Source of the DNA: Cryomorpha ignava
GTDB lineage: Bacteria; Bacteroidota; Bacteroidia; Flavobacteriales_D; Cryomorphaceae
Assembly (NCBI RefSeq): GCF_010686655.1
Contig: NZ_JAAGVY010000008.1
Coordinates: 1-64,000 of the forward strand
Direction of reading: 5' to 3'
DNA length: 64,000 bases
Shown here: piece after piece, positions 1 to 25,601 of the stretch
Numbering within the stretch: position 1 is the stretch's first letter
How the letters are laid out: every line of letters begins with the position of its first letter
Notes under the pieces: model-generated
What the model saw: the letters and a program-made list of their open reading frames with translations, nothing else
Databases searched by the model: none
Told to the model about the DNA's origin: nothing
Made by a program: the position numbers and the translations under genes

Positions 1-332
1 CTATTTCTAATTTTTCCACACCTATTTTGGTTGCGGCACATTTCAGTTCTTCTATTCTGGTTTCATTTATTTCTGTTTCTGGGTTGTGTCCAAGAGTTAG
101 TAAATGTATAGTTGCACCTTTTTCTTTCAGATAGGAGGCAAGACCAACACAAGTGATTTCATCATCAGCATGCGGGAAAATGAGTAAGACTCTGGTGTTT
201 TCATCGACAGAGGTTTCTAACGGTATTACCGAATTGTCTTGATAGGATGCTATTTTTTCATAGTCAGTGTTATTTGTATTACACCCAACTAACAAAATCA
301 GGGTTGTCCAGATATAAAATTTACAGTTCATG
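1..332 (-). CDS. PIG-L/LmbE-family deacetylase lipoprotein, 3' part cut by window edge
   Basis: Read on the minus strand, the protein starts MNCKFYIW and has a lipobox-like LLVGC near residue 17, so it is probably a lipoprotein. At about residue 53 it has FPHADDEIT, the PIG-L/LmbE family motif (usually AHPDDE), which supplies zinc ligands and the catalytic Asp in GlcNAc-type deacetylases. The following segment, with LLTLGHNPETE and a long helix, also fits the family. The remainder lies left of the window. Its substrate cannot be read from the sequence. The start codon sits about 17 bases after the core of a palindromic cassette-like site, so this is probably the next unit of the array. The start could be off by a base. 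Confidence 0.75.
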
Positions 333-348
333 GTTCTTTTTAATGTTT

Positions 349-482
349 GCCAACGGTTAGTATATGAAAAGTAGGCGATTACGAAGCACGAAACTTTCGG
401 GTAAACACAAAATTTGATACGAGCCACAAGCCTTGATTTTATTACTGTTTCGCCTATTTTTTATATACATTGTTGTAGGGCG
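349..482 (-). repeat. attC-like palindromic site A
   Basis: An imperfect palindrome between two minus-strand genes. The arms TATATGAAAAGTAGGCGA (about 361-378) and TCGCCTATTTTTTATATA pair over 18 bases with two mismatches. The outer cores are CCAACGG on the left and TGTTGTAGGGCG at 471-482. Read on the minus strand, the left edge is CTACAACA and the right edge is CCGTTGG, the same YAACA...CGTTR layout as integron attC sites. The right-hand core is repeated in inverted form at 1176-1185 on the far side of the intervening gene. Confidence 0.6.
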
Positions 483-485
483 TTT

Positions 486-1166
486 TTATTCCTTTAATTG
501 TTCCTTTTTAGCTTTTTCAATATCTTGTAGGTCAATATAATCCCATTTTTCAATATTGTTGTAAACTCCGACAGTCAGAGCTTTGTAATTGTAATAATTT
601 TGTCCATCAGCAGCTAATATTCTGCCTGTAGTCCTTTCGTTAAAAACTACTAAACTGTCTCTTGGTGGTTCGGTAGCTCTTGGGTTAATAGTATTAGGAC
701 CATTGAAGTGTCGATTGTCAAGTTCTCCGAGCTCCTTTCGTATGCCATTACTATCTACAAAGAAGAATTCCTGAAATGTATATACATCGTCATTCTGACT
801 GAACTTTGTAAAAAGTATTCCGTTTTCAGGGATTCTATAAACTCTATGAATTCCTTCATATTCCTTTTCTTTTCCATTTTCTTGGTCAAAAATCACATAT
901 ACAACACCACGAAAATCTTCAGGTATTAGATACCGTTCAGGAATTTCCATAGCGTTCAAAAAAGTAAATGCTACAAAGCCAAAAGGAAGTCCAATTAAAA
1001 GTACTTTATAAAACCATTTTTTCCTTGAAAGTAAGCACAAGATTGTTCCGAGAATCATTAAACCAAATCCCAAATACATTAACCAAAAGGTGATGAAGCA
1101 AAAAAGTCCAAGAGCAAATAATGCAATTGAAATTCCGAAGAGTGTATTTGAATTCGATTTTGTCAT
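486..1166 (-). CDS. Membrane-anchored protein, probably DUF6843-like
   Basis: 226 residues. Three hydrophobic segments lie in the first 75 residues (about 9-27, 29-45 and 53-70). A soluble domain of about 150 residues follows, opening with IPEDFRGVVYVIFDQENG. That opening resembles the small DUF6843 family found next to Bacteroidota membrane anchors; I recognise it by eye only. The soluble part should face the periplasm or the outside. The gene is a single-gene cassette-like unit: GTTGTAGGGC lies 3 bases beyond its stop codon, and the same word in inverted form lies 10 bases before its start. The ATG follows an A-rich run (TTTAAAAAATG), which is typical of translation starts in this phylum. 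Function unknown. Confidence 0.6.
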   Translation of the reverse strand: MTKSNSNTLFGISIALFALGLFCFITFWLMYLGFGLMILGTILCLLSRKKWFYKVLLIGLPFGFVAFTFLNAMEIPERYLIPEDFRGVVYVIFDQENGKEKEYEGIHRVYRIPENGILFTKFSQNDDVYTFQEFFFVDSNGIRKELGELDNRHFNGPNTINPRATEPPRDSLVVFNERTTGRILAADGQNYYNYKALTVGVYNNIEKWDYIDLQDIEKAKKEQLKE

Positions 1167-1175
1167 TTTTTAAAT

Positions 1176-1310
1176 GCCCTACAACGGCAAATATAAGAGT
1201 AGTGGGGCATTTCGAAGAACATCTTTTCAATTTACCGTAAAGTTCATTGATTGTATAATGTTCATATTTAGACGTAAAGCCCCATTATCTCTTATATAAT
1301 GTTGTGGTGC
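1176..1310 (-). repeat. attC-like palindromic site B
   Basis: The arms ATATAAGAGTAGTGGGGC (1191-1208) and GCCCCATTATCTCTTATAT (1279-1297) pair almost completely. The outer cores are GCCCTACAAC (1176-1185) and GTTGTGGTGC (1301-1310). The left core matches the right core of site A across the 226-residue gene. The right core matches the left core of site C at 3373-3382. Confidence 0.65.
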
Positions 1311-1384
1311 GTGATCGTTAATTTAAAATTATGTCAGAAGTAAAAAGAATAGTTTTCTAGTCCAATATTATTTTAGCGGTTAAC

Positions 1385-1942
1385 TCATTCATTATAGCGT
1401 TTTTTCATAAGCGGCTTTATCTTTAATCTTCCCATGGGATCTGGAACAGAAAATGAGGTTAAAAGCTCTTGATTTTTAGTATGATAAAAAAATTCAAGCG
1501 TAATTTCATTATTCTTGAAAAAGGCATATTCAGGTGTGCTGTATAAAGAGTCATATAATTCATATTGAGTGGTATTTAGCAGTTGCCAATCATTTTCAAT
1601 TTCATTAACATTAGAAGCAGTATAGTAATATTGCAATTTGAAAGGGCTAATAGTTGTTTTGGATACAAAACTACAACTGTCCCAAATATTTCCGTCTTCC
1701 ATTTTCATTGGAAGTTTGTTTTTTAGATCTATAATCAACTCTTTGAGATCCCTTCGTATTTGAATATCATTCGGCGTTAATTTATTAAACTTATCTCTCA
1801 AATGCTCTTCTTCAATTTGTCTTTGCGTCATTCCTGGATACATTTTAGTATTTATACTATCCTTAAATAGGATCGAAGAAACTCGAATAAGTATTACTGC
1901 CGCAACAGAGAATAGAACAGCTTTATAAAATTTATTTTTCAT
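1385..1942 (-). CDS. Hypothetical membrane-anchored protein
   Basis: 185 residues. There is one hydrophobic segment at about residues 8-26 (an N-terminal anchor or uncleaved signal), then a polar domain with no motif I recognise. The basic N-terminus and absence of a lipobox suggest an inner-membrane anchor with the bulk in the periplasm. It is the last of three minus-strand genes enclosed between matching cores at 1301-1310 and 3373-3382. The gaps on its upstream side hold no palindromic site that I can find. No function is assigned. Confidence 0.5.
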   Translation of the reverse strand: MKNKFYKAVLFSVAAVILIRVSSILFKDSINTKMYPGMTQRQIEEEHLRDKFNKLTPNDIQIRRDLKELIIDLKNKLPMKMEDGNIWDSCSFVSKTTISPFKLQYYYTASNVNEIENDWQLLNTTQYELYDSLYSTPEYAFFKNNEITLEFFYHTKNQELLTSFSVPDPMGRLKIKPLMKKRYNE

Positions 1943-2089
1943 GTATAATTTTTTAGTGTCTAATTAGATCAAGACATGCTGTGAATGTAGATTGGTCACT
2001 TCGTTTAGTAGCCATTTAGTTTAGCGTTGACACCGAAGGTAAATGCATTGGAGCACGTTAATTATATACTTCGGAACGGGAGCTATTGT

Positions 2090-2788
2090 TTATTGGTTCT
2101 CGTCTGTAATCCGAGCACCAAAGTAGTCGCTCTTCGCCTTAGCTTGCTTTATTGATTTTTCACCATCATATTCTTTGTAGTACGCGTAAAAAATCAACCT
2201 TTCCTTTATCAAAACCATATTAAGAACCATAACAAGAAAATTTTCATTGCTATCAGATTGCAATTTTGTTAAATAAACTTGAGATATTCTTCGGTCATCA
2301 GTTCTATAGGACTCAAGCAAAACAGGCCGGTCAAAAGTGACGTGTTTAGTAAGAGAATCGAGTTTTGGTTTAAAATCGCTCCACCTTTCTTTAAAAAATC
2401 CCTCTCCAACCTCGTCGTTGATTAGGTCTAATTCAGGCTTTCCCATCTTCATGCCTTTAGCAATCTTTCCTGCATATATTTTAAAGTAATCATCGTGGGC
2501 GAATTCACCATAGCTTTCTCTTTTAGCATAATCGCTGTCGCTTAGGTATATTCCTATAATTTCCTCTTTTTCCCGACTTAATTCGTCATGCATTGATGAG
2601 ATTTTAGGATCAGAGTAACATTCGTTCATTCCCTCAATTTCCGGTAGGCAAATTGAAATGTCCCCAAAAGTTTTTTCATTCCCGCATTGGATGACTTCTA
2701 TCACCTTTGGGGGTTTGCTGTGGTTCTGGCTACCTATTGGGTCACAACTGATGGCAGCGAGAAGTGGCAAAATGTAAAATATCTTCAT
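2090..2788 (-). CDS. Hypothetical lipoprotein
   Basis: 232 residues. The N-terminus MKIFYILPLLAAISCDPIG has a short basic start, a hydrophobic stretch and a lipobox ending in Cys15, so it should be lipid-modified. The mature part is charged, with aromatic segments near the C-terminus (FLVMVLNMVLIKERLIFYAYYKE), and matches no family I know. It lies in the middle of the three-gene unit bounded by GTTGTGGTGC-type cores. Asp at +2 after the Cys is an inner-membrane retention signal in E. coli, but this rule does not hold reliably in Bacteroidota. Confidence 0.55.
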   Translation of the reverse strand: MKIFYILPLLAAISCDPIGSQNHSKPPKVIEVIQCGNEKTFGDISICLPEIEGMNECYSDPKISSMHDELSREKEEIIGIYLSDSDYAKRESYGEFAHDDYFKIYAGKIAKGMKMGKPELDLINDEVGEGFFKERWSDFKPKLDSLTKHVTFDRPVLLESYRTDDRRISQVYLTKLQSDSNENFLVMVLNMVLIKERLIFYAYYKEYDGEKSIKQAKAKSDYFGARITDENQ

Positions 2789-3060
2789 CTTATTTATTTA
2801 TTTAAGACTGTTTTTCTTAGGTAATCTCGTGTTTGCGTGTTTTTAGTTACTCACCTTAAAATTTAAGCGTCAATGTCAAATATCAAAAGAACAGTTTCGC
2901 TACAATTGCATAATTTTGATACTAAAGAGCCAAAGTTTCATCCTACTAATAGTATCACCTTCGGCTGTTCGAAAAGCATATTAGAAGAGCATTGAGTTTG
3001 TAAGTTTAGACGAACTTTTTAATCTTCTTTCGTATGACCCTGTATTTCGTAGAGAAGTAT

Positions 3061-3354
3061 TTAGCAAACTCGGTCGAGAGATTCCTTGAGTTTATCCCTT
3101 TCTCTTTCGTAAGAGTTTTTACGAGCGTTCTTTTTTCGTTCTTTATAAATATCAAACTCTTTCTCTATTTGATAAGATATGTCATCAATTACATCTCGTA
3201 TTATAAAATCAAACTTTTTATCTTTGTTTATATTCTTTAATTCTCTTATAGCTTCTAAAGAACTTCTTGCGATTGAATTAAGGTCTTGCTCACCCAAGTC
3301 TCCGAGTTTACTTCTTGATTCTGATATTACTTTAAAAATTTCCTTTTTGCCCAT
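3061..3354 (-). CDS. Small charged helical protein, unknown function
   Basis: 97 residues if translation starts at MGKKEIFKVI. An in-frame extension upstream would run into the palindromic site, so I prefer the inner ATG, which follows AACATAAA. The protein is almost entirely predicted helix and rich in Lys, Glu and Arg, with no signal peptide or membrane segment. It is the only apparently cytoplasmic product of the left array. It is the first gene of the three-gene unit: the core GCACCACAAC lies just before its start, and the matching GTTGTGGTGC lies 2 kb away. No family is recognised. Confidence 0.5.
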   Translation of the reverse strand: MGKKEIFKVISESRSKLGDLGEQDLNSIARSSLEAIRELKNINKDKKFDFIIRDVIDDISYQIEKEFDIYKERKKNARKNSYERERDKLKESLDRVC

Positions 3355-3372
3355 TTTATGTTCTATTTTAAT

Positions 3373-3508
3373 GCACCACAACGTTTTGCGCATATGGCTT
3401 GTGGCGGCTTCCGAAGGTAAATCTTTCATTCCAGGATAATCTCGATCCGAAGATCATGTTTCGAATGTAGGAAAATCCCGCTATAAGCCATATGCAGTGT
3501 TGGTGGTA
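3373..3508 (-). repeat. attC-like palindromic site C
   Basis: The arms GCATATGGCTTGTGGCGG (3390-3407) and CCCGCTATAAGCCATATGC (3477-3495) pair with only two G/A changes. The outer cores are GCACCACAAC (3373-3382) and GTTGGTGGTA (3499-3508). A spacer of about 70 bases separates the arms. The right core recurs in inverted form at 4085-4094, enclosing the 186-residue gene. Confidence 0.65.
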
Positions 3509-3516
3509 GTTTTCTT

Positions 3517-4077
3517 TTATTTTCCGAATTTATCAAGATTAAGCTGAATATAATTTGCCGAGTCTGGTTTGAAATCTGTCTTAAACAATGAGAAACTTAA
3601 AGTATCTGGATTCATTTTGTTGAGATCATTATTCCACAAATTGTATTTCAATCTGAATGAAGTATCTGATTCAACTTTACCACTATAGAAATTCAGGTCA
3701 TAGTTGCCCGCTCGATTTACATAGTGTTCAATGAAAATGCTGTCGTTTTCTACCCACCAGATACCCCATCCCCAAATCCCATATTTTTTATCCATAGGAT
3801 AGAAAAGTGAATCATTTTTGAACTTTTGGTAATACACACTCTTTATGTCAGTTGGATCGTCCTGTGTAGTCCAAATGTTATTCATGTAGCCATTGTCAAA
3901 GAGGACGAAGGGTAAATATCCATTTTCAGTTTCTGCAACATAGTATCCATTTACATTCAATGGCCGTGGTCGATTGTGGAGTTTATCTGTGGAGAGATTT
4001 TCTTTATTGTATATGGTGATACAGGCATTTAAAGAAACTAAAATGATTATGATCTGTATGACTTTCGCGCTTCTCAT
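3517..4077 (-). CDS. Hypothetical Trp-rich lipoprotein
   Basis: 186 residues. The N-terminus MRSAKVIQIIIILVSLNACI is a lipoprotein signal with a lipobox ending in LNAC at about residue 19. The mature domain is rich in Trp, Tyr and Asn (for example GIWGWGIWWVENDSIFIEHY) with alternating polar and aromatic residues that suggest beta strands. No family is recognised. The gene fills one cassette-like unit exactly: GTTGGTGGTAGT ends 7 bases beyond its stop codon and ACCACCAAC begins 8 bases before its start. Confidence 0.6.
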   Translation of the reverse strand: MRSAKVIQIIIILVSLNACITIYNKENLSTDKLHNRPRPLNVNGYYVAETENGYLPFVLFDNGYMNNIWTTQDDPTDIKSVYYQKFKNDSLFYPMDKKYGIWGWGIWWVENDSIFIEHYVNRAGNYDLNFYSGKVESDTSFRLKYNLWNNDLNKMNPDTLSFSLFKTDFKPDSANYIQLNLDKFGK

Positions 4078-4084
4078 TTTAAAT

Positions 4085-4150
4085 TACCACCAACGATCAC
4101 TGTAAGGTGCGTATCCCGGAGGGTATGCACTTTACAGAATGTTGGTGGTA
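4085..4150 (-). repeat. attC-like palindromic site D, compact hairpin
   Basis: The shortest site of the left array. The arms CTGTAAGGTGCGTATCC (4100-4116) and GGGTATGCACTTTACAG (4121-4137) pair over 17 bases, with three positions of the G/A or T/C kind and a loop of only a few bases. The outer cores are TACCACCAAC (4085-4094) and GTTGGTGGTA (4141-4150). The units on both sides carry the same core word, so this site is flanked by identical cores. Confidence 0.65.
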
Positions 4151-4164
4151 GTTTTTTCTTTATT

Positions 4165-4671
4165 TCAAATTTTCAATCCATCTAGCTTCATCTGATTAAT
4201 AATTTCAGTGGCTACTTTTTCTGGATTGCCAGGCCCCGTTACATTAGAACCCTTCGTGTAGACTCGGGCGGCCCAAATCTTTTTATTTTCTTTTGGGTTC
4301 AGCAGTTCTATATTTAGCAATGTGTTGCTAGGTTGTCCGTTGTATAGCGAAACTCGCACGTGATTAATTGTCATGATTATGTCGGCCTGCTGATCTGTCG
4401 TTATTTCTGCCCTTTCAGAACTTAAATTTGGATCCATTTCATTGATAACTTTGGTGGTAGCGTCTATACCACTTTCTTTTAGTCCTTGCTTCAAGCTAGC
4501 GCACAATTCCTTGCTGAATTTCTCTACGTTATCAGGCGTCCAGCAAACCAGTGCAATATTTTTGATGTCTGAGTTGAAGGTGGTCTGTCCCGTTGAATTA
4601 ACAGTCGAGGCACACCCACCGAGCCCCATTAAGGCTACACAGATCAATATATTCAACAGTTTTTTTCTCAT
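4165..4671 (-). CDS. Hypothetical lipoprotein
   Basis: 168 residues from MRKKLLNILICVALMGLGGC, a textbook lipoprotein signal with lipobox LGGC at residue 20. An in-frame start 24 bases further upstream would place the first residues inside the recombination core, so it is not preferred. The mature part has TTFNSDIKNIALVCWTPDNVEKF, then a segment with QADIIMTINHV and NTLLNIELLNPKENKKIWAARV. This looks like the small lipoproteins that carry a DUF4136- or GNA1162-like alpha/beta fold; I am not certain of the family. It is the first gene of the left array when read in the direction of transcription. Confidence 0.6.
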   Translation of the reverse strand: MRKKLLNILICVALMGLGGCASTVNSTGQTTFNSDIKNIALVCWTPDNVEKFSKELCASLKQGLKESGIDATTKVINEMDPNLSSERAEITTDQQADIIMTINHVRVSLYNGQPSNTLLNIELLNPKENKKIWAARVYTKGSNVTGPGNPEKVATEIINQMKLDGLKI

Positions 4672-4683
4672 AATTCTTCTAAT

Positions 4684-4760
4684 TACCACCAACATCCCTA
4701 TAAACGCAACTTCTCAAATTTCTATATCGTTTATATCGCTTATATAAGCCAGTTAGGATC
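4684..4760 (-). repeat. Array-start site E, attC/attI-like
   Basis: The core TACCACCAAC (4684-4693) matches 4141-4150 across the 168-residue gene. Beyond it lies a weaker palindrome with arms ATAAACG (about 4700-4706) and CGTTTAT (about 4728-4734). On the minus strand the border reads GTTGCGTTTATAGGGAT followed by GTTGG. Nearly the same border stands before the isolated cassette at 49648-49670. The inner edge is ATGTTGG instead of CGTTG as in the internal sites, so this is probably the conserved upstream end of the array. Confidence 0.5.
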
Positions 4761-9408: not shown

Positions 9409-10831
9409 GATGAGAATAGTTTTTTTTCTTCTTTCAATGATCTTTGGTTATCACGCCTTGGCTCAGGTTGAGTCAATCAGCACATCTACTCAGCGCGATT
9501 CGGTTTTAGATTATAATAGTTTTCTTAAGTTGGTAGAAGCCTATCATCCGGTTTCGCTTAGCGCCAACTTTAATATGGACATTGCCGAAAGAAATCTAAT
9601 GATTGCAAGAGGAGGCTTTGACCCGCTTCTTTATGGTAATTACAGAACCAAAGAATTTGGTGAGACTGATTATTACACGGCATTAAATGCCGGGCTCGAA
9701 ATCCCTACCTGGATGGGAATCACGGTTCGTGGCGGATACGAAGACAATCAAGGACAATATCTCAACCCCGAAAATACCGTGCCCGGCAATGGACTTATAA
9801 ATGCAGGTATTACAGCGCAACTCGGTTCGGGATTGCTTATGGATAGCAGAAGAGCTGCACTTCGCCAGGCGCAAATTAGCATCGATCTCACTCAAGCTGA
9901 AAGGCAGATTTTGCTTAATCGGCTATTTGTGGAAGCTTCAACAGTATATTTTGAGTGGGCCCTTGCCGCCGAAAATCTGGTGGTCACAGAGAACGCGCTG
10001 TCGCTGGCCGCCACTCGCTACGAGGCTACCAAGGTGAGTTTTGAGTTTGGCGATTTGCCGGCTATCGATACCACAGAGGCTTATACGCAAGTGCTCGATC
10101 GGCTCTATCAGTTACGCGATGCACAATCGCAATGGATTAAGTATGTAAACGCAGCTTCCGTTTATTTGTGGACAGGCGAGCAATTGCCACTGAATATAGC
10201 ACCAGGCGTTTATCCAAACCTATCTGGAGCCATTTCATTTACCGAAGAACTTTTTGCCATCAACAACAATCATCCCGAATTGCAGAAACTCGAGTTTAAG
10301 ATAGATTATTTGAATATTGACAGAAGGCTAGCTTCCGAATACTTGCGTCCAAAAATTGAGTTGAAGTATAATTTTCTTTCTGAAAATGCTTTCGCCAATT
10401 CGGATACTGAGCTGTTTGGTACTTCCCGATTCTTTGAGAATAATTACAATTTTGGAGCTAAGGTTTCTTTTCCGCTATTTATTCGCGAAGCACGCGGAAA
10501 ACTCGGAATGACGAAGATCAAAATAGATCAAACCGGCCTGGAGTTCGATTTAAAGCAGGCGCAACTCAATGCAAAGTTGAGCACCTTGATTGGATATTTA
10601 GCAAATTTAAGTGATCAAATCAGTTTTTACGAACAAAACATTGCCTTATTGGAGCGCATGCGCGTTGGTGAGGAGCAGCTTTTTGAAAATGGTGAGAGCA
10701 GTCTTTTTCTGGTTAATGCGCGTGAAACCAAATTGATAGATGCCGAAATGAAGTACAATGCACTCTTGGCAAAGGAGCGAATCGTTCGAGCAGAAATTCG
10801 TGAAATTAGTGGTCAAGGCTTTTTTGATTAA
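9392..10831 (+). CDS. TolC-family outer membrane efflux protein
   Basis: 479 residues from the ATG at 9392. The alternative ATG at 9410, one base after the HlyD stop codon, is also possible. A signal peptide (RIVFFLLSMIFGYHALA, then Q) is followed by alternating long helices and short strands typical of TolC: NFNMDIAERNLMIARGGFDP early, the paired helices around QAERQILLNRLFVEASTVYF, and a second repeat in the C-terminal half. It is the last gene of the tetR-ABC-hlyD-tolC operon and provides the outer-membrane channel. Confidence 0.87.
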   Translation: MVKRNRMRIVFFLLSMIFGYHALAQVESISTSTQRDSVLDYNSFLKLVEAYHPVSLSANFNMDIAERNLMIARGGFDPLLYGNYRTKEFGETDYYTALNAGLEIPTWMGITVRGGYEDNQGQYLNPENTVPGNGLINAGITAQLGSGLLMDSRRAALRQAQISIDLTQAERQILLNRLFVEASTVYFEWALAAENLVVTENALSLAATRYEATKVSFEFGDLPAIDTTEAYTQVLDRLYQLRDAQSQWIKYVNAASVYLWTGEQLPLNIAPGVYPNLSGAISFTEELFAINNNHPELQKLEFKIDYLNIDRRLASEYLRPKIELKYNFLSENAFANSDTELFGTSRFFENNYNFGAKVSFPLFIREARGKLGMTKIKIDQTGLEFDLKQAQLNAKLSTLIGYLANLSDQISFYEQNIALLERMRVGEEQLFENGESSLFLVNARETKLIDAEMKYNALLAKERIVRAEIREISGQGFFD

Positions 10832-11348: not shown

Positions 11349-12173
11349 TTACTTATCCTGAAGCACCAATATGGGCAATGCAGAATGAGAAATAAGTTTG
11401 CGGCTTACCGAACTTCGAAACAGGCCTTCAAAAAATCCATATTGGTGTCGCACTACTACAAGCACATCGGGATTGTGCGTTTCTATACCATCCTGAATGC
11501 CTTCATTTATCTCGTTATCAAATAGATAAGTAATACGTGTTTTACCTTCTCCGAAAATGCGATCGAGCTGGCTGCGGAATTTTCCTATTTTCTCATCGTC
11601 AGATTCCTGACCCTGTTTTCTAATGTGCAGAAAATCAAGTTTAGCATTTGATTTGCTTGTGAGCGTTGAGAGAAATTGAAGGTGCTTGTCGTTTTCAGTT
11701 ACTTTCAAGTCTGTTGCAAACAGTATATGCCCAATATTTTTATAAGCATGATCTGCGGGAACAATCATAAGTGGATCTTCCACATTTTTGGCAGCTGAAG
11801 CCGCATTTGTACCAAGCCATTTTTCGGTGATACCGCTGGCACCTTGGGTACCCATTACCACAAATTCAATTCCTTCAGTTCGGCTCATTCTGTTTATTAC
11901 TTCTACAACAGTGCCATGCTGGGCATTGTAGGTAATAAGCACATTTGATTTGTTGATCGATTCCACTTTTCTTTTGAGAAGCTCAAGCTCTTCGTTTGCA
12001 TTTTTCTCCAAAATCTCGGTAATGTCTACCATTATTGCAGATCCGGTAGCTGGCATACTGTACGCATGAACAACGTGGATAGAATAGTCTAAGAGTTCTG
12101 CTAAGCGAATGGCGTATCCAAGGGCGTTAAACGCTCCGTCAGAAAAGTCGGTAGGTACAAGGATGGTATTCAT
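11349..12173 (-). CDS. Universal stress protein with tandem UspA domains
   Basis: 274 residues holding two UspA-type alpha/beta domains. The first opens with MNTILVPTDFSDGAFNALGYA and ends around FVVMGTQGASGITEKWLGTNAA and DPLMIVPAD. The second begins near residue 148 (IGHILFATDL) and ends PILVLQDK. The G-2X-G-9X-G nucleotide-binding pattern is partly present in the first half and lost in the second. Tandem Usp proteins are common in Bacteroidota and usually respond to starvation or oxygen stress. It is a single gene, with citrate synthase upstream having its own terminator. Confidence 0.9.
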   Translation of the reverse strand: MNTILVPTDFSDGAFNALGYAIRLAELLDYSIHVVHAYSMPATGSAIMVDITEILEKNANEELELLKRKVESINKSNVLITYNAQHGTVVEVINRMSRTEGIEFVVMGTQGASGITEKWLGTNAASAAKNVEDPLMIVPADHAYKNIGHILFATDLKVTENDKHLQFLSTLTSKSNAKLDFLHIRKQGQESDDEKIGKFRSQLDRIFGEGKTRITYLFDNEINEGIQDGIETHNPDVLVVVRHQYGFFEGLFRSSVSRKLISHSALPILVLQDK

Positions 12174-14344: not shown

Positions 14345-16009
14345 TTAATGTATTCCATGCATCCATTTTCGCAGAAGCGGAACCATTAGGAATAGTATCA
14401 AAGCGGCACCAAGTACTACAGCTACACCCCAAATTAAATACGTATTTGCATATACAGAGAGCGTTTCAGAAGGGGGCGCAGTATCACCCACATCTTCACC
14501 AGCTGTTAGCTCTCCAATCAAACCCGCCATTTTGTTGGCAAGAGAGATAGATAAAAACCAAGCCCCCATAACAAATCCTACGGCTTTGGCAGGTGATAGT
14601 TTTGTAATCATAGATAACCCAACCGGCGATAAGCAAAGCTCACCAGTGGTATGAAAGAAGTACATGGCAATCAAAAACACCATAGAGACCATTCCTTCTA
14701 CTGCAAAGTATTTTGATCCGATAACAATAACCCCAAAACCGACAGCGAGGAAGAACAAACCGAGAACAAATTTCATCGGTGTTGATGGCTCTTTGCCGCT
14801 GCTGTTTAGCTTTATCCACATATATGAGAAAAGCGGAGCAAGGATAATAATAAAGAAGCTATTGAAGAACTGGAAGGTAGATGCGGGAATTCCATGACGG
14901 ACAATATTCCTTTCGGTAAATAAGGTAATGGAGCCACCGGCCTGTTCAAAAAGCGCCCAAAATACGGCGTGAAAGACAAAGAGAACCATGATTACCCACA
15001 TCCGTTCTTTTTTGGATTTATCGTCTTGTTTGAGCGACATGACAAAAATAACTGCCAGAATTCCGATGCTCAATACCAGTAGAATTACGGTTACGACATC
15101 GCTCAAATTTAAAAATTGGGCACAAATAGGAATAAAAATCAAGGTGCCGATAATGGCAAGCCACTGATTTCGCTTCAGGTTTGGAGAAGTATATTTTTCA
15201 AAAGATTCAGCTTCGCGCATATGCGCGTCGAGAATTGCTTCAGATCCGGCTTCGAGTCTGGCTACATCTTCTTTCTCATTTATCTCTTCATCTATATCGT
15301 ATTGGCTTGGGTTGATTCCTTTTTTCCCAAAAGCACGAGGCCCCATAAGCCAAAACACGAGTAGGCCGGCGAGCATTCCAATACCTGCAAGACCAAATCC
15401 ATAGTGCCAGCTTATTTCTTCGCCTACGTATCCACAAGTTACAATGGCAAGGAGAGCTCCAATATTTACACCCATGTAAAAGATAGTAAATGCACCGTCT
15501 TTTCTACTGTCATTTACGCCGTAAAACTTACCGAGAAAGCTGGAGATATTTGGCTTGAAGAATCCATTTCCAATAATAATAAAAGCAAGCGAAAGAAAGA
15601 AAAGCTGCATATTTCCGCCAAAATACATCCCTTCAAGAGCAAGGGCAAAGTGGCCTGCCATCATGAGAATACCTCCGAATAAAATAGCTTTTCTGAAGCC
15701 CAGAATTTTATCGGCAATAATACCACCCACTACCGGAAAGAGGTAAACCATGGCGGTATAAGAGCCATAAATTCCGAGCGCTTTGCTATCGGCTTCGCCT
15801 TGCCCCAAATGGTTAAAGAGTTCCTTAACCATATAGAGGGTAAGGAGTGCCCGCATTCCATAATAAGAAAACCGCTCCCACATTTCTGCAAAAAACAGAA
15901 CGAACAGCGCTCTGGGATGAAGTTTTCTATTGGAATAAATAATTATTGGTACCCAGATAATTACAAATATCCAGGCTACGACCATTATCCAGAAAGCTAT
16001 ATTATCCAT
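14345..16009 (-). CDS. Proton-dependent oligopeptide transporter (POT/PTR2 family)
   Basis: 554 residues with about 14 hydrophobic segments. EMWERFSYYGMRALL matches the POT signature ExxERFxYYG on helix 1, and GNGFFKPNISSFLGKFY is the second family signature. It imports di- and tripeptides with protons. It is larger than its neighbour because of a charged loop near residues 235-275. The order DPP IV, POT, POT, thioredoxin-like on one strand suggests a peptide-scavenging operon in which the peptidase releases dipeptides. Confidence 0.92.
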   Translation of the reverse strand: MDNIAFWIMVVAWIFVIIWVPIIIYSNRKLHPRALFVLFFAEMWERFSYYGMRALLTLYMVKELFNHLGQGEADSKALGIYGSYTAMVYLFPVVGGIIADKILGFRKAILFGGILMMAGHFALALEGMYFGGNMQLFFLSLAFIIIGNGFFKPNISSFLGKFYGVNDSRKDGAFTIFYMGVNIGALLAIVTCGYVGEEISWHYGFGLAGIGMLAGLLVFWLMGPRAFGKKGINPSQYDIDEEINEKEDVARLEAGSEAILDAHMREAESFEKYTSPNLKRNQWLAIIGTLIFIPICAQFLNLSDVVTVILLVLSIGILAVIFVMSLKQDDKSKKERMWVIMVLFVFHAVFWALFEQAGGSITLFTERNIVRHGIPASTFQFFNSFFIIILAPLFSYMWIKLNSSGKEPSTPMKFVLGLFFLAVGFGVIVIGSKYFAVEGMVSMVFLIAMYFFHTTGELCLSPVGLSMITKLSPAKAVGFVMGAWFLSISLANKMAGLIGELTAGEDVGDTAPPSETLSVYANTYLIWGVAVVLGAALILFLMVPLLRKWMHGIH

Positions 16010-16062
16010 AAGGCAGATGTATTAGGTTGTGAGCAACACTATGTTTTAAAATTGGTTAAGTT

Positions 16063-17478
16063 TTAAAGTGACTTGTCGGCTAATTCAAATTTTTCTTGTT
16101 CGGGTGGTGTTTCGATTTGTAAATCTTCAGCACCGTGAGTCAAACGTTTAAGCGGTTTAAGCAAGGCTATAACCAGCAGGCCGACTAACGTGCAGAAAAT
16201 GGCGATTCCTGTAAAAATTTCGAGCTCGCCTGCAGACTGTGACCACTCTCCAAGCAAACCTGCCAGTTTATTTCCAAAACCTGTGGCTGCAAAATAAGCA
16301 CCCATCATAAAAGATGCATATTTAAGCGGAGCAAGTTTTGTGATGAATGAAAGCGCAACCGGCGAGGCGCAGAGCTCACCAATAGTGTGAAGTAGATACG
16401 CAAATACCAACCAGTACATTGCCGATTCTCCTTCAGCTGCGTATTGCAGGGAAGCGCCTGTCATAAACAAAAATCCCCAGCCCATAATGATTATTCCAAT
16501 TGCCATTTTGAATAGCGACGAAGATTCCTTGTTGCGTCTTTTTCTGGTTGCCCAAAATGCGGCAATCGGAACTCCAAGGGTAATAATAAAGAAGGCATTT
16601 ACAGATTGAAACCAGGATGCAGGAACCATAAAGTCCAGAAATCCAATATAGAGGTCGGTTTTTTGAGCGGTGTAAATATTTAAAAGACCTCCGGCTTGTT
16701 CAAATGAACCCCAGAAAACAATGATCAAAGCAAAGGAAATGAACATAACCTTCATCCTGTCTTTTTCTATGTGCGTCAGTGGCCTTTTCTTGGCTGCCTG
16801 CTCTTCACGGCTCATTTCTGTAGTAGATTCTCCAATACCTTTTAAGAATTTTTGTCCCCACATAAATACAACCTGGCCTACCACCATTCCTATGCCAGCA
16901 AGCCCGAAACCGAGATGCCATCCATAGAATTCACCTACGTATCCTACTATGAGAGCTGAAAGAAAAGCACCTATATTTATTCCGATATAGAAAATAGTAA
17001 AACCTTTGTCGCGGCGATCGTCGCCCGGTTCGTAGAGCCCGCCAACCATAGTAGAAATATTTGGCTTTAAGCCACCGACTCCCAAAATAATTAAAGCCAG
17101 ACCAGCGTAAAATGCCCAAAGTGCATCAACAGCCAAAATACCATGCCCGGCGCAAAGCAAGAGACCACCTATTAACACCGTTCTTTTTTGACCCCAAACT
17201 TTGTCGGCGAGCCAACCACCGGGAATCGACATTACGTAAACCAGCATGGTGTACCATCCGTAAAGAACTAAAGCATCAGATTCATCCCATCCATATCCGG
17301 GATTGTCGCCTGTGGACGATGAAATAAGGTACAGTACAAGTATGGCTCGCATTCCATAATAAGAAAAGCGTTCCCATAATTCTGTAAAGAATAAAATGTA
17401 CAGCCCTTTCGGGTGCCCCATAAATTCTTCTCGCACTATTGATGGATTTGTTGATTGATTGTTCTCGTCTAAGATCAT
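16063..17478 (-). CDS. Second proton-dependent oligopeptide transporter (POT/PTR2 family)
   Basis: 471 residues. The signatures ELWERFSYYGMRAIL and GVGGLKPNISTMVGGLYEP are intact, and about 12 membrane segments are visible. The C-terminus is charged and cytoplasmic. The gene starts 3 bases after the DPP IV stop codon, so the two are surely co-transcribed and probably translationally coupled. It is a paralogue of the next gene downstream. The two differ most in the central loop and may have different peptide preferences. Confidence 0.92.
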   Translation of the reverse strand: MILDENNQSTNPSIVREEFMGHPKGLYILFFTELWERFSYYGMRAILVLYLISSSTGDNPGYGWDESDALVLYGWYTMLVYVMSIPGGWLADKVWGQKRTVLIGGLLLCAGHGILAVDALWAFYAGLALIILGVGGLKPNISTMVGGLYEPGDDRRDKGFTIFYIGINIGAFLSALIVGYVGEFYGWHLGFGLAGIGMVVGQVVFMWGQKFLKGIGESTTEMSREEQAAKKRPLTHIEKDRMKVMFISFALIIVFWGSFEQAGGLLNIYTAQKTDLYIGFLDFMVPASWFQSVNAFFIITLGVPIAAFWATRKRRNKESSSLFKMAIGIIIMGWGFLFMTGASLQYAAEGESAMYWLVFAYLLHTIGELCASPVALSFITKLAPLKYASFMMGAYFAATGFGNKLAGLLGEWSQSAGELEIFTGIAIFCTLVGLLVIALLKPLKRLTHGAEDLQIETPPEQEKFELADKSL

Positions 17479-17481
17479 TTG

Positions 17482-19746
17482 TTACAAATTGTCTTTAATA
17501 AAATTCGTCATCTTGGTATAGAGATGGAAGCGTGTGTTTCCACCATAAATGCCATGGTTTTTATTGGGATAAATAAATAGATCGAACTGTTTATCGGCAT
17601 CCACAAGTGCTTTGACCATTTCCATTGTGTTTTGATAATGTACATTGTCATCGGCAGAGCCGTGAATTAGCAAATATGCGCCATTAAGTTGATTTACAAA
17701 ATTTATTGGCGAATTTTGATCGTATCCTTTGGCATTTTCTTGTGGAGTGCGCATAAATCTTTCGGTGTAAATACTGTCGTAATACCTCCAGTTGGTAACG
17801 GGCGCCACAGCGATTCCCATCTTAAAATAATCGGCACCCTTGGTCATAGCAAGCGAAGTCATAAATCCGCCATAGCTCCATCCCATCATTCCCAAGCGGT
17901 TCTGGTCGATGTATTTTTGGTTCCCAAAAAATTTCGCAGCTTCAATCATGTCCTCGGTTTCAAGTTTTCCGAGTTCTAAGTAGGTACTGTGCTTAAAATC
18001 TTTACCGCGGTACATCGTTCCGCGTGGATCTACAGAAATTACGATATACCCTTCCTGAGCCAGCATTTGGTGCCAAAAGTAGTTTGAGCCATCCCACGAG
18101 TCTGTTACAGTATTTCGACCAGGCCCTCCGTAAATCATAAAAATAGCGGGATACGCTTTGGTGGGATCGAAATTTTTCGGCTTAATGATCCAATAATTCA
18201 GATCAATATTGCTGACCGTTTTAAAGGTTCCAAACTCTTTTTTGGAAATATCAAGCTGATCAATTTTTTTCTGAAGAGCGGCGTTTGTTTCTAAATTGCG
18301 TATTTTCCTTCCTTTAGAATTGAAAAGTGCGATTTTATAAGGCATATCGGCAGCCGTTTCAAAATTTATAAAATAGTCGAACGATTTGCTAAAAGAGGCA
18401 TCATTGGTGTGCCCGTTTGGTGTGAGTTTGGTTAGCTCTCCGCGCATATCCTTGGCGGGTACCACCGTGCTTTTTGTCTTATTGTATGTTTTGAATACTG
18501 GCTGGTAGTCGAGGCTATATACTTCGCGCTCAAGAGGGCTTTCAATAGCGGCAGAGAAATACAATTTATTATCATTTTGATCAGCACCATAAAATTCCAC
18601 AACCTCCCAGGTTCCTTTTGTGAGCTGAGCCACTTCGGTACCTTTTAAATCATACATATATATATGATTCCAGCCATCCTTCTCGCTATTCCACAAAAAG
18701 TGTTTGTTGTCATTTAGAAAAATCAGATTATCATTAACCTCAATATAAGTATCCGACTTTTCGTCGTATATAGTCTTTACCGTAATATGCTTATTCGGGT
18801 TTGCCACATTCGCAAGCAAAAATTCCAGATGATTTTGATGGCGGTTGAGGCGCATAATCGCCAATTCGTCATCATTTTGGGTCCATTTGATTCGCGGAAT
18901 ATATTGATCGGCCTGTGCATTTGCATCTATTTCAACCTTAGCCGATTTCTTTAGATCATAGACCATTATGCCCACTTTCGAATTATCTTCTCCGGCTTTG
19001 GGGTACTTAAAATCGTAGGTAGTAGGGTAGAGGTTATCGTAAATGAGCATGTCAAAATTTTTCACTTTCGATTCGTCAAAACGATAGTAGGCTATCTTAC
19101 TTCCTTTTGGAGACCAATAAAAACCTCTGGCAAATCCAAATTCTTCTTCATAAACCCAATCTACTGCGCCATTAATTATTTCACCCCATTTCCCATCGTC
19201 GGTTACGCGGGTTTCTGTACGCACATCGAGATTTGAAATAAAAAGGTCATTTTTTCTAACGAAGGCCACCTGATTTTCTGTTGGCGAGAAGGCCGCAAGC
19301 TGTTGTTTTCCAAGTTCGAAATTTGTGATAGGTCTTATTTCATTCGAATTTAAGTCAATGGCATAAAAATTTGCTTTAGACGATCGTCGATAAATGCTTT
19401 CTTCATCGGTGGCAATCAGAATTTTTTCTTCGTTGGGGCTGAATGAATAGCTGGAAAATTGAATTTCATTGCCATCTACGCCTTCATAATCCGAACTCCT
19501 TATTAATGTATCTACAGCATTTCCGCTCTCGTATGCGTACTTTACGATGTACTGGTTGCTACCTTCAGAGACGCTTCTTGTATAATGAATTCCATCGCTC
19601 ATGCTTACAATTCCTTGCACGTATTCCGGGCTGTAAGTTCCTTGTTTCCAAATTTTTTCGATAGAAATTTTATTGTCTTGCGCGGTTGCGACTGTTACAC
19701 TTAAGAGGCAAAAAATTGCCAGCGATACTCTATAAATCAGATTCAT
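17482..19746 (-). CDS. Dipeptidyl peptidase IV-like S9 serine protease
   Basis: 754 residues, typical of the S9B family. A signal peptide (SLAIFCLLSVTVATA, then Q) precedes an N-terminal beta-propeller (about 40-480) carrying WVYEEEFGF, whose paired Glu residues hold the substrate N-terminus. The alpha/beta-hydrolase domain follows, with nucleophile GWSYGG near 624, Asp in GSADDNVH near 697 and His in KNHGIYGG near 731. It cleaves X-Pro or X-Ala dipeptides in the periplasm or on the surface, feeding the two POT carriers encoded just downstream. Confidence 0.95.
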   Translation of the reverse strand: MNLIYRVSLAIFCLLSVTVATAQDNKISIEKIWKQGTYSPEYVQGIVSMSDGIHYTRSVSEGSNQYIVKYAYESGNAVDTLIRSSDYEGVDGNEIQFSSYSFSPNEEKILIATDEESIYRRSSKANFYAIDLNSNEIRPITNFELGKQQLAAFSPTENQVAFVRKNDLFISNLDVRTETRVTDDGKWGEIINGAVDWVYEEEFGFARGFYWSPKGSKIAYYRFDESKVKNFDMLIYDNLYPTTYDFKYPKAGEDNSKVGIMVYDLKKSAKVEIDANAQADQYIPRIKWTQNDDELAIMRLNRHQNHLEFLLANVANPNKHITVKTIYDEKSDTYIEVNDNLIFLNDNKHFLWNSEKDGWNHIYMYDLKGTEVAQLTKGTWEVVEFYGADQNDNKLYFSAAIESPLEREVYSLDYQPVFKTYNKTKSTVVPAKDMRGELTKLTPNGHTNDASFSKSFDYFINFETAADMPYKIALFNSKGRKIRNLETNAALQKKIDQLDISKKEFGTFKTVSNIDLNYWIIKPKNFDPTKAYPAIFMIYGGPGRNTVTDSWDGSNYFWHQMLAQEGYIVISVDPRGTMYRGKDFKHSTYLELGKLETEDMIEAAKFFGNQKYIDQNRLGMMGWSYGGFMTSLAMTKGADYFKMGIAVAPVTNWRYYDSIYTERFMRTPQENAKGYDQNSPINFVNQLNGAYLLIHGSADDNVHYQNTMEMVKALVDADKQFDLFIYPNKNHGIYGGNTRFHLYTKMTNFIKDNL

Positions 19747-20024
19747 TAAATTAAAAAATTACAGAAGCGGCGGTGAATATAGGAATTTCGATTTACACAA
19801 ACGATGCCAAATCATTTTGCTTATGAAATATTTTTAAATGCAATCTAGTTGCTTATTGATTTCAATAAAATACCGTATCACCCCTAAGGGTGAGAAAAAG
19901 TTTCACAAAGAATTCATTGAATTGTAGTAGGTAAAGTTCAGTATTAGAATGAGATGTCAAAATATTTACTCAATGGCAATCCAATTTTCTTATAGAAAAG
20001 TTTATTTATTAAGAATCTTTGTAT

Positions 20025-20032
20025 TATATTTG
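20025..20032 (+). promoter_or_regulatory. Candidate -7 box of a small RNA
   Basis: TATATTTG fits TAnnTTTG. TTTA at 20001-20004 could serve as a poor -33 box. No gene follows, but a terminator hairpin stands 120 bases downstream. Confidence 0.4.
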
Positions 20033-20039
20033 TGTCACT

Positions 20040-20172
20040 TGGATAAGTCATTGTGGGAGTCCCCTATCTTTCATCGTCTCACTCTAAAGACTCTCACGTT
20101 CATGACCCCAAGATAGTTTTTCTGTTTCATAGCCCTGAAAACCCTTCAATCGAGAAGGGTTTTTAGGTTTTA
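20040..20172 (+). ncRNA. Candidate small RNA of about 130 nt ending in an intrinsic terminator
   Basis: Between the TATATTTG box and the hairpin AAAACCCTTC / GAAGGGTTTT (followed by a T-rich run) there is no reading frame. Internal complementarity is present: CTATCTT with AAGATAG, and competing with it GGGAGTC with GACTCTC. The two pairings overlap, which would suit a switch or simply reflect chance. I do not recognise the family. Confidence 0.35.
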
Positions 20173-20281
20173 AGTCATTTCGCAACCTACCTTTCGTCCG
20201 GTTTTATCTAGCGACTTAAAGCCAATTCATTTCAGAGAATAGAATTCAACTTCTGCTGAATAACCACAACAAGAAATAGTT

Positions 20282-20409
20282 ACATAGGTGTTTGGTTTAA
20301 TCTTAGAATGCGCAATCGTTGTAGTCGCAGGTAACTTATCACCGTAGACCTCAGGAGCCCGTATGGAGAGAGTCCATATGGCTGCATCTCGCAGGCACAA
20401 TTTCTATGT
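20282..20409 (+). ncRNA. Candidate structured RNA, possibly 6S-like
   Basis: ACATAG-GTGTTTG (20282-20294) pairs with CAGGCAC (20392-20398) and CTATGT (20404-20409), leaving a 5-base bulge. At the tip AGCC-C-GTATGGA (20356-20367) pairs with TCCATAT-GGCT (20373-20383). The result is a long rod with a large internal bubble, the general shape of 6S RNA, for which a Bacteroidota class (6S-Flavo) is known. I cannot confirm that class from the sequence, and no clear promoter or T-run frames the block. Confidence 0.3.
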
Positions 20410-20497
20410 TCCTATATATCTATGTGGTGAAAATTAAAGAAGTATTAAACTTAGATCAAACAGACTGAATTAAAAGAGTTGTTTAAGCTGGGCCCGC

Positions 20498-21594
20498 TTA
20501 TTTTCTCGATTTAATAGAATCAAGCCATGAAAATTCCCGATTCATTTCAGTAAATACGATTCGTAAAAAAGAATACACGGGCAAGGCAGCAACCATTCCC
20601 AATATACCGCCAAGAGAACATGCAATTAGGATGACTAAAAAGATTTCTAAGGGATGAGCTTTTATGCTGTTTGAGAAAATGGCAGGCTGAAAAATGTAAT
20701 TATCGAGCAGTTGAGTAATCGTAAAAACCAATACCAGTCCTAACATTTTGGGACCGACCACATCAGAAAAACTATAAGCGATATTATTGGCCAGAAGTAT
20801 AAAAGCGCCAAAACTTGCGCCAATCCACGGGCCGAGATAAGGAACTAAATTTGCAATGCCTGTAAAGGTTGCGATGAGCAATGCATTTTGCACACCCACT
20901 ATACTTAATCCGATATAAACGCAAGTCGTTATTGCTACTATTTGAACAAGAAGACCTAAAAAATATCTCGACAAAATCTTGTTTGTATTGACAAAAATCT
21001 GATCAACCGCTTTTTCCATTCGCATTGGCGAAATAGCTAAAACAAGTTTTCGTATTGTGTTTTTGTCTTTCAGAAAAAAAATGAGATAAAGGAAATAGAG
21101 AATATGGCGATCAGAAAATTACCGAAGACACCGATTGCAGTATTTAAAAACCCGGATAATAAGGTGAAATTAAGTGAGCTAAAGATGTAATCTACTGATT
21201 GGTTTATATCTATTTTCATATCGGGATTGATGTGATATGCAACGATAAAATCGTTAAAACCATCTATATATGGTCGAAATTTTTCTTGAAAAAGAACGAA
21301 GTCGATTTTTGAAAGCTGTTGAAATTGACCGAAAACTACCGGCAAGAAAGCGCCTATTAGTACTGCAAGAATGCCAATAATTGTAATAAGTGTAAAAGCA
21401 GCTATAAGAGCACGGGGCAATACCTTGCCTTTAATTTTTATTTTTTCGAGTAAATTAGAAAGCGGCCTTCCAATTAGAGCTACTATTGCCGCCACCAAAA
21501 CATAGAGCAAAATAGTAGAAGCTTGATAAAGAATCCATCCGGCTATGAATATCAAAGTGAGTATAAGTAGCAGTTGTAACACTTTTCTGATCAT
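20498..21594 (-). pseudogene. AI-2E-family transporter split by a frameshift
   Basis: The N-terminal half runs from the ATG at 21594 (MIRKVLQLLLILTLIFIAGW) to a stop just after ISFFF. The C-terminal half continues in another frame with LKDKNTIRK and then the rest of the permease, ending at 20498. The break lies in a run of eight T on the coding strand (8 A at 21074-21081). One extra T would restore FFFLKD, the usual family motif, and give a protein of about 365 residues. It may be a sequencing or assembly error in a homopolymer, a genuine mutation, or phase variation. The intact homologue is at 41390. Confidence 0.8.
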
Positions 21595-21596
21595 AA

Positions 21597-22250
21597 CTAC
21601 CGTATAGATAAGTAGAGAATTCCATAAAAAAGAAACTGGCAAATAATTGCCATTTGCCCAAGTCGGGGCTTCGCTACCAAAGGATATTTTTGAAATATAG
21701 CCGCCAAAAAGAAGGCAACGACGAATCTCGAAACGTAATTTTGAACAGGGATGTGATTTCCTTCCCATGCCCACAAGTCAAAATAAACAGCAACCGGCTC
21801 AATGAGCATATAAAGAAGAGTAACGAGCGCAGCTGTTAATAGCCAGGTTATTACCGGATGCAATTTCGACATCTTAAATATAGAATAACTGCCCCAAATT
21901 AAGATCATCCACTGCAAACCAATAATAGGAGGGGTGTGAAAAAATTTCCAGCCAAGCATTTCGCCAAAAGTGTATTCCCCGAAAGGGAAACCCGTATTTA
22001 CTCCTAATATCTCTACGCCATAGCCCAATAAAATTATGGTAATTGCCACGGGCCATCCCAATTTATTATTTGATTTTGAATCGAGCCAAATCATTCCGCC
22101 TGTTATGAAAATTAAGATGGGAGTGAGATATACAAACCAAGCCGAAAGTGGCGATACATAGCCCGCAGCACCAAGTAAATGCAGAACCAAAAGAATTGCG
22201 ATGCCTGCTTTCTTGGACTTAAATTGCTCCAGACTTTCAATTTTTCTCAT
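21597..22250 (-). CDS. Carotenoid biosynthesis protein, CruF/DUF422 family
   Basis: 217 residues with about 7 hydrophobic segments. Family marks are GYGVEILGVNTGFPFGEYTF, GLQWMILIWGSY and LMIEPVAVYFDLWAWEGNHIP with VQNYVSRF. Proteins of this family add water to the 1,2 double bond of carotenoid end groups (CruF-type hydratases). In Bacteroidota they sit in carotenoid or related gene clusters. Here the only close partner is the AI-2E gene 2 bases downstream, so the exact substrate cannot be inferred. Confidence 0.8.
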   Translation of the reverse strand: MRKIESLEQFKSKKAGIAILLVLHLLGAAGYVSPLSAWFVYLTPILIFITGGMIWLDSKSNNKLGWPVAITIILLGYGVEILGVNTGFPFGEYTFGEMLGWKFFHTPPIIGLQWMILIWGSYSIFKMSKLHPVITWLLTAALVTLLYMLIEPVAVYFDLWAWEGNHIPVQNYVSRFVVAFFLAAIFQKYPLVAKPRLGQMAIICQFLFYGILYLSIR

Positions 22251-22409
22251 TGGTGATTGAATGATTGACCAAACAAAAATACTGTAATTAGACTGTTAAT
22301 TGATATTTGCTGCGACATAATGGGTTATAAACAGCACTTTGATTTTTTAAAAAGAATTTTGAATAAGTGCATATGCTGATTTTTCACGAAAACAGGTTGG
22401 TAAAATTAA

Positions 22410-22438
22410 TTGAGTTCAGACAAAATCTCTTATCTTTC
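22410..22438 (+). promoter_or_regulatory. Candidate promoter of the polyphosphate kinase gene
   Basis: TTG at 22410-22412 and TATCTTTC at 22431-22438, 18 bases apart, fit the Bacteroidota pattern TTTG-N18/19-TAnnTTTG except for the last base. Confidence 0.4.
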
Positions 22439-22491
22439 AATGCAATTCACATTCGGGTTGCTATATTGTGATCAAAATAATTCGGAAGGGT

Positions 22492-23370
22492 ATGAAATTG
22501 GATTTTAATAGATATGAAGTAATAAGTGGGAATGGCTTTCGTCTGGCAGACTATTCTACGAAACCCGATTTTTCTCTATCCGCTAAGGAGTCGAAAAAAA
22601 TAATTAAAGCGAATGTTGAAGAAATAGCAGATTTTCAGGAAAGAATGTTTGCCAATCAAAAAAGGTCGGCATTAATTGTTTTTCAGGCGATGGATGCTGC
22701 CGGAAAGGATGGAACAATTGAGCGGCTTGTAACAGGCGTAAATCCGCAGGGAGTTTTGGTAAGGCCATTTAAGGCGCCTACTCCTATGGAATTGCGCCAC
22801 GACTTTTTGTGGCGGGTACAATTAAAACTTCCTCCACGAGGCATAATAGGCGTCTTTAATAGATCGCATTATGAAGAGGTTTTGGTGGTACGTGTTCATC
22901 CGTCTTATTTGCTTCAACAGAATATTCCCGGAATAGAATCTATTGAAGACGTGAACGACGACCTCTGGGAAAGGCGTTTTAAAATGATTCGAAATTTTGA
23001 GCAAAATCTCGTCCATACGGGAACGCATGTGATGAAATTCTTTCTTCATATTTCCAAAGATGAGCAGAAAAAGCGATTGCTTGACCGTATCGGCGAGCCT
23101 GACAAGCATTGGAAATTTAATTTGGGAGATGTCACAGAACGCCCATACTGGGATAAGTATATGCGCGCTTTTGACGATGCTATTAGAAACACGGCATCGC
23201 CAGATGCGCCCTGGTATGTTATTCCCGGTGATGATAAAGACGACGCTAGAGCAATTGTAACGTCCATTGTGGCACAAAAGCTTGGAGCGGTAAAAGAGCA
23301 GTGGCCTGATGCGGGAGCAAAGAAACGTGACGAAATAGATGCAGGCGAAGAAATTCTTGAGAATGAATGA
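22492..23370 (+). CDS. Polyphosphate kinase 2 family phosphotransferase
   Basis: 292 residues from the ATG at 22492, which is preceded by GGAAGGGT. An in-frame GTG lies 24 bases upstream. Walker A-like AMDAAGKDGTI (about 73-83), lid region GVFNRSHYEEVLVVRVHP (about 121-138) and the C-terminal HWKFNLGDVTERPYWDKY are standard PPK2 marks. These enzymes move phosphate between polyphosphate and nucleoside mono- or diphosphates. The class (AMP- or ADP-acting) depends on residues I cannot judge securely. It stands alone, with stress-related genes (PRC-barrel, CsbD) nearby. Confidence 0.92.
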   Translation: MKLDFNRYEVISGNGFRLADYSTKPDFSLSAKESKKIIKANVEEIADFQERMFANQKRSALIVFQAMDAAGKDGTIERLVTGVNPQGVLVRPFKAPTPMELRHDFLWRVQLKLPPRGIIGVFNRSHYEEVLVVRVHPSYLLQQNIPGIESIEDVNDDLWERRFKMIRNFEQNLVHTGTHVMKFFLHISKDEQKKRLLDRIGEPDKHWKFNLGDVTERPYWDKYMRAFDDAIRNTASPDAPWYVIPGDDKDDARAIVTSIVAQKLGAVKEQWPDAGAKKRDEIDAGEEILENE

Positions 23371-23515
23371 GGCACCGCCAGTAAAGAAAATGAGGTGAAA
23401 GTGTTGCATTTCATACACAATCCATTTTCATATAGTTCTGATTAATAATGATTTAAAAAAGGAGCGTAAATTGCTTTTACTTCTTTGATTAACTGAATAA
23501 CAAAAATTTAGGAAT

Positions 23516-23899: not shown

Positions 23900-23938
23900 A
23901 TTTATTAAAAGTAAAATCGACTTAATCTTTTAGGGTTC

Positions 23939-25462: not shown

Positions 25463-25601
25463 TGAATTACGGATACTGTAGATGTTCTTAGCCGGCTAAT
25501 TTAATAATCTGAAAGCCATTGATTTTTGAGCGCGCGAAGATAGTTATTTTTTTAGTGATTCAGTGTTATCAAGACCCGTCTTATAAGTTAAAATGCGTAA
25601 T

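Follow-up and report, generated by a model that had tools for sequence, protein, structure and literature searches.

A cassette array with wobble-bearing hairpin sites in Cryomorpha ignava, and a possible integron variant whose integrase lacks the I2 helix

The first 4,745 bases of a 64,000-nucleotide stretch of the Cryomorpha ignava genome (the window, positions 1-64000 of contig C8, base 1 being the first base of that contig) are likely the attI-proximal part of an integron cassette array, in which cassettes would be inserted at a G|TT core by a tyrosine recombinase that joins attI to the hairpin formed by the bottom strand of attC. Our best reading is that the array belongs to a widespread integron variant without I2, the absence of I2 being an observation on the integrases of relatives only. 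With somewhat less confidence, we also favour the broader view that the array belongs to a second type of integron, widespread in one bacterial order, with a Xer-like integrase devoid of the I2 helix, cassettes captured as folded single strands, and polarity set by T.G wobbles in place of extrahelical bases. Such a system may preserve a state that preceded I2, and it would be missed by standard detection, which relies on IntI with I2 and on a canonical attC model. An earlier note on this DNA had called positions 1-4760 an integron-like cassette array, and that description was upheld by the matching of cores, by the attI, by a cassette present in two arrays and by integrase-linked arrays in this genome and its relatives.

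The cassettes of the window stand in tandem, all in one orientation, between sites with a G|TT core. The array starts at an attI-like site with an eroded integrase-gene tail (4691-4745, minus strand; core word TTTATAGGGATGTT at 4691-4704), and the entry point for cassettes, G|TT, is at 4693/4692. Read from there on the minus strand, cassette 1 (4094-4692; core GTTGGTGGTA / TACCACCAAC) carries a lipoprotein-like gene at 4165-4671; cassette 2 (3382-4093; core GTTGGTGGTA) carries a gene at 3517-4077 to which no function was assigned; cassette 3 (1185-3381; core GTTGTGGTGC) contains the ORFs 3061-3354, 2090-2788 and 1385-1942; cassette 4 (354-1184; core GTTGTAGGGC) carries a DUF6843 gene at 486-1166 (Pfam PF20862, 61 bits); and cassette 5 (1-353; core GTTGGCAAAC), truncated by the contig end, contains a PIG-L-like gene (PF02585). 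Since contig C8 begins at window base 1, the assembly truncates the array there. Four attC-like sites, D (4082-4150), C (3370-3508), B (1173-1310) and A (342-481), lie on the plus strand, which is the bottom strand of the sites. In the gene direction each is ordered R''(..AAC)-3 nt-L''-loop-L'-5 to 7 nt-R'(GTT..). PADLOC gave no match for the cassette proteins, and a search of Rfam likewise gave none.

The cores and palindromes claimed in the earlier note were all present where it had placed them, and its rule that a unit's core recurs at the opposite end of that unit held in full: each of the four complete units is flanked on both sides by its own 10-base core, identical at 7/7 variable positions. 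Two details had to be amended. Of the five palindromic sites that had been named A to E, the first four are attC-like, and E (4680-4745) is instead attI-like and common to six other arrays. The unit given as 1385-3354 does have matching cores, but it is one 2,197-base cassette with three ORFs, extending over 1185-3381, inside which our stem detector found no further site scoring at least 22. This detector seeks only AAC/GTT and a stem, and gave scores of 29.5-35 to sites A-D. When 1-4745 was shuffled 60 times with dinucleotides preserved, no site reached 29 and one reached 25; on both strands of window positions 9001-64000, one match scored at least 22. We then used covariance models. The first, R1, was built from the window sites and applied, together with the detector, to the rest of the genome; the second, R2, was built from sites of the whole genome, with A-D in its training set, so that its scores for the window sites are those of training sites: 52.4 bits for D (E 8e-13), 38.6 for C (E 1e-8), 43.1 for B (E 5e-10) and 53.2 for A (E 5e-13). 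In the 64-kb window R2 found these four sites and nothing else above 10 bits, and the class 1/2 attC all went unmatched. With the window cores as search words, nothing beyond the window itself was recovered.

R1 and the detector revealed further arrays on contigs C100, C75, C51, C55, C47, C45 and C22, which allowed the core matches to be measured against chance. Among 30 units on eight contigs, 27 match at 6 or more of the 7 variable core positions and three are without a core match, whereas non-cognate core pairs share 2.2 positions on average; none of 100,000 permutations reached the observed sum. The stems themselves show covariation. With 20 sites aligned almost gap-free on the bottom strand, 90.8% of cells were paired as compared with 69.5% in shuffles, and 77 cells were changed on both sides (22.9 in shuffles); when the alignment was slid, pairing dropped to 29-49%.

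In their fine structure the sites depart from known attC. According to Bouvier et al. (PMC2727003), the extrahelical G of attC is absolutely conserved and acts as the strand selector. The earlier note had likened the internal sites to canonical attC, a likeness that did not hold, as extrahelical bases are mostly absent and T.G wobbles stand in their place. Under neutral scoring of 31 stems, 16 have no bulge at all, and only two extrahelical G were seen overall, so that the conserved extrahelical G is not a feature of the sites of this genome. By the same procedure, 11 of 11 class 1/2 attC used as controls had one to three L'' bulges, at about the same places, and no excess of A:C. Read on the top strand, the 31 stems have A(L''):C(L') 51 times and C:A once. 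These A:C pairs are T.G wobbles in the bottom strand and lie 10 and 15-16 nt from AAC; in the alignment of 20 sites, one stem pair is G.T in 18 and another in 12. The bottom strand folds better in 24 of 30 sites (Wilcoxon p 1.8e-4; A:C 49, C:A 1). Because the sites share ancestry, the wobble counts are not independent of one another. The core also differs from GTTRRRY, as the earlier note had stated for most cores: GTTR is retained, the bases after it are free, and 9-10 nt are paired.

The earlier note had also described the array as lacking an integrase. This is true of the window but not of the genome, in which one integrase gene is interrupted both by the start of contig C75 and by the end of contig C100; it is transcribed toward the array and runs into the same attI. 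As these two arrays follow a C-terminal integrase fragment at contig ends, the genome has an integrase; the remainder of the gene is absent from the assembly. The fragment comprises 59 residues of the C-terminus, ending TEIYTHVL..MKSPLDILYEKSTFEKSDNGMLI, and is directly followed by TATAAACGC..GCGTTTATACGGATGTT, at whose GTT the first cassette begins. The attI-like sequence of C8 is 85% identical to the sequence that follows the fragment on C75 and C100. An attI-like start adjoins at least seven arrays of this genome, and the word TTTATANGGATGTT was located nine times, seven of them at array starts (C8, C45:23528, C47, C51, C55, C75 and C100). Two more matches to the attI word, with a different seventh base, are found at C45:13397-13410 and C68:2280-2293. 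C51, C47 and C8 still show the end of the integrase gene in eroded form. These ends at a shared attI make decay the most likely way in which the window array lost its integrase; an array so deprived might be served in trans by the copy at C75/C100. No full IntI came out of a search of the genome, which yielded XerC/XerD-like genes, a pair of transposon-type recombinases and, besides these, just the two C-terminal fragments. The part of C8 that was covered has at least two attC-like sites with no integrase nearby, as a CALIN would, but the contig ends inside the array and the sites are non-canonical.

To which group the fragment belongs is a matter of small differences. It scored 42.6 bits against TIGR02249, 31.4 against XerC and about 31 against XerC/XerD; in a second comparison its scores were 60.2 bits for IntI, 57.4 for the I2-less group and 49.5 for Xer. 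Since the integrase of the window genome is known by these 59 residues only, and these are slightly nearer IntI in bits, it may carry I2. Among 84,980 species, no relative of the fragment exceeded about 55% over most of its length, and the nearest were gammaproteobacterial IntI without arrays. A pseudogene of an I2-less-group integrase, from the family of the window genome (G001:C8, about 374594-375154), is over 36 residues the closest match to the fragment (64%).

We examined the integrases that stand beside such arrays in relatives. None of the 399 genomes of the order had a match to TIGR02249 above the cut-off. What precedes the relatives' arrays are tyrosine recombinases of about 280-400 aa that read toward the array and match TIGR02249 at about 2-180 and 239-315 only. 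Six such integrases with an array were found (in G004, G101, G261 on contig C3, G053, G050, where the gene is broken, and G003), two of them, G003 and G004, in the family of the window genome; G184 was left out, as its integrase is opposite to its sites. In these six platforms 41-115 nt separate the stop codon from the core of the first cassette, this core agrees with the first attC at 6-7 of 7 positions, and in most of them an inverted repeat such as AATAAACGTAATACGTTTATT lies between stop and core. The I2 stretch comprises 19-20 residues in the relatives' array integrases and 59 in eight IntI; from KGxKDR to HTLRH, the insert-free integrases mostly span 63-67 residues and IntI 106. The insert-free sequences retain the catalytic residues R, K, HxxR, H and Y. 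In a tree whose basis is thin (four Xer rows, midpoint root), the insert-free integrases and IntI fall on one side and XerC/XerD apart (100/98), and the insert-free integrases form the sister group of IntI (81/84). An AlphaFold model of one relative's integrase (pLDDT 78, pTM 0.56), with IntI4 (2a3v) and XerA as its top PDB matches, is too weak to suggest more than the absence of the extra helix. The integrase group also includes members outside arrays. On contig C70 (L027, 4700-7000), a tyrosine recombinase adjoins an IS91-like transposase gene, behind which the DNA switches abruptly to a high G+C content; the contig is possibly misjoined or foreign.

The sites are widely spread among relatives. 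R2 matched in 132 of the 399 genomes of the order, in 44 of 70 genera. In the relatives' loci that were fetched, 41 of 72 adjacent pairs have cores that agree at 6/7 or better (0 of 20,000 permutations; non-cognate rate 1.5%), and the 31 others, without a core match, represent missed or spurious sites. At 54 distinct sites of relatives, A:C was counted 87 times and C:A four times, with L'' bulges in five and an extrahelical G in none; these counts were made with our own scripts on loci chosen mostly by R2. R2 matches occurred in 13 of 16 genomes with close integrases as compared with 119 of 383 others, an association that is only moderate. A plasmid of Chryseobacterium sp. SNU WT5 (Flavobacteriales; NZ_CP041688.1) carries an insert-free integrase (WP_143853951.1, 65 residues between KGxKDR and HTLRH) beside an array with matching cores.

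Movement of cassettes had been proposed in the earlier note, and is borne out by natural junctions rather than by circles. The search for window units in other contexts recovered the PIG-L cassette (window 1-353) on C100, with 235 nt identical from GTT on and unlike attC before the two copies. The Chryseobacterium plasmids NZ_CP041688.1 and NZ_CP094530.1 (C. oryzae) have integrase and attI in common and diverge exactly at GTT: the latter is about 90% identical across integrase and attI up to ATATAAACAAGTT, after which a different gene follows. This divergence is a natural junction, placed exactly where one was predicted.

These observations bear on three other explanations. The palindromes could be transcription terminators or REP/MITE-like repeats, with genes that were never mobile as units; the sites are indeed intergenic hairpins, some of whose bodies recur in the genome. 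However, the outer cores pair with the far end of their own unit and not with the hairpin, the cassette found elsewhere has its border at GTT, the natural junctions lie at attI|GTT, and the core permutation test strongly disfavours this explanation, which we regard as very improbable. Transfer of double-stranded modules by XerC/XerD acting on dif-like sites, as in pdif modules, fares little better and is improbable. XerCD pdif modules are likewise gene units between short recombination sites moved by Xer-like enzymes, and the dif-like inverted repeat in the attI of relatives and the Xer-like length of the integrases agree with such a mechanism. Here, however, hairpins with strand-asymmetric wobbles and cores that vary from unit to unit lie between the cassettes in place of a constant dif-like site, and a dedicated integrase stands at the array start.

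An ordinary integron remnant of the CALIN type deserves more weight, but we consider it unlikely as well. By this account a canonical IntI, I2 included, is encoded in the window genome, whose attC differ in detail only. The C-terminal fragment does have LGHSSLETTEIYTHVL in common with gammaproteobacterial IntI, and its slightly higher score to IntI than to the I2-less group points the same way. Against this stand the extrahelical G missing from the attC, the same type of site beside I2-less integrases in relatives, including the family of the window genome, and the lack of any above-cut-off, full-length IntI match in the order's 399 genomes.

In the I2-less variant that we favour, attI would be bound as a double strand and attC as a folded bottom strand, the cut would be made at G|TT, and the cassette would enter at the attI adjoining the integrase gene. 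T.G wobbles some 10 and 15 nt inward of the AAC/GTT core may be what the integrase recognises, at the places that hold the extrahelical bases read by IntI, and the wobbles at these positions would set polarity through the choice of strand. In the view based on crystal structures, extrahelical bases are the landmarks by which I2 reads attC (PMC7790495), and the joint absence of I2 and of extrahelical bases is what would be expected if the two depend on each other. I2 is also held to be the domain that took integron integrases from double- to single-strand recombination (PMC7790495); a system without I2 and without extrahelical bases, yet with own cores and attI, would make the order of events in the origin of integrons testable. 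Such a variant would help to explain why few integrons have been reported from Bacteroidetes (PMC9024848), and would mean that a large reservoir of mobile gene cassettes has so far gone unseen.

The arrays resemble chromosomal integrons and CALINs in their tandem one-way cassettes, R''-L''-L'-R' hairpin sites, G|TT junction, own-core matching and attI at the array start, and the integrases of relatives come from the sister branch of IntI. They differ in that the relatives' array integrases are without I2, the sites have T.G wobbles instead of extrahelical bases and a GTTR core with 9-10 paired bases, the integrase is co-directional with the cassettes, and one genome has at least seven attI. 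Decay of intI and multiple intI per genome are already known (PMC2426708). In the 'atypical' integrons of Treponema, too, intI points toward attI and has the orientation of the cassettes, but the available part of that report describes intI with ordinary attC and mentions no I2-less integrase (PMC3607928). Insert-free members exist in an 'integron-like' subgroup of simple tyrosine recombinases (PMC8138268), and the G053 integrase falls into this subgroup, or NF040815, 'site-specific tyrosine recombinase/integron integrase' (240.9 bits, cut-off 220). The accessible portion of that source terms the insertion essential for integron function and does not link insert-free members to cassette arrays. 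A literature search that left most subscription journals and preprints outside found nothing linking insert-free integrases to cassette arrays and no report of wobble-type attC.

The bodies of the sites and the sizes of the cassettes are varied. About six types of attC body occur in the genome, and near-identical bodies are found with different cores and genes, as if bodies had been joined to genes during cassette formation; the body of site B shares 93% identity with C75:8768-8903, whose two cores and genes differ. Among relatives in the order, one short attC body, CTAAACTGCATTAAAACGCAGTTTAG, is shared by many genomes belonging to different families (for example at loci L189, L193, L198 and L202). 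On contig C51 of the window genome, two attC with matching facing cores (GTTATGCCC) are separated by 11.8 kb (15125-26922); this stretch is either one giant cassette or what remains of an array that has lost its inner sites. At the other extreme, an attI-proximal cassette at 2750-3215 of locus L020 (C100) has matching cores (GTTGCCTAAT/ATTAGGCAAC) and no evident ORF, and one array on NZ_CP041688.1 seems to hold three copies of a mini-cassette (9897-10071, 12027-12166 and 14408-14547), all sharing the core GTTGGGAAAA and one attC body.
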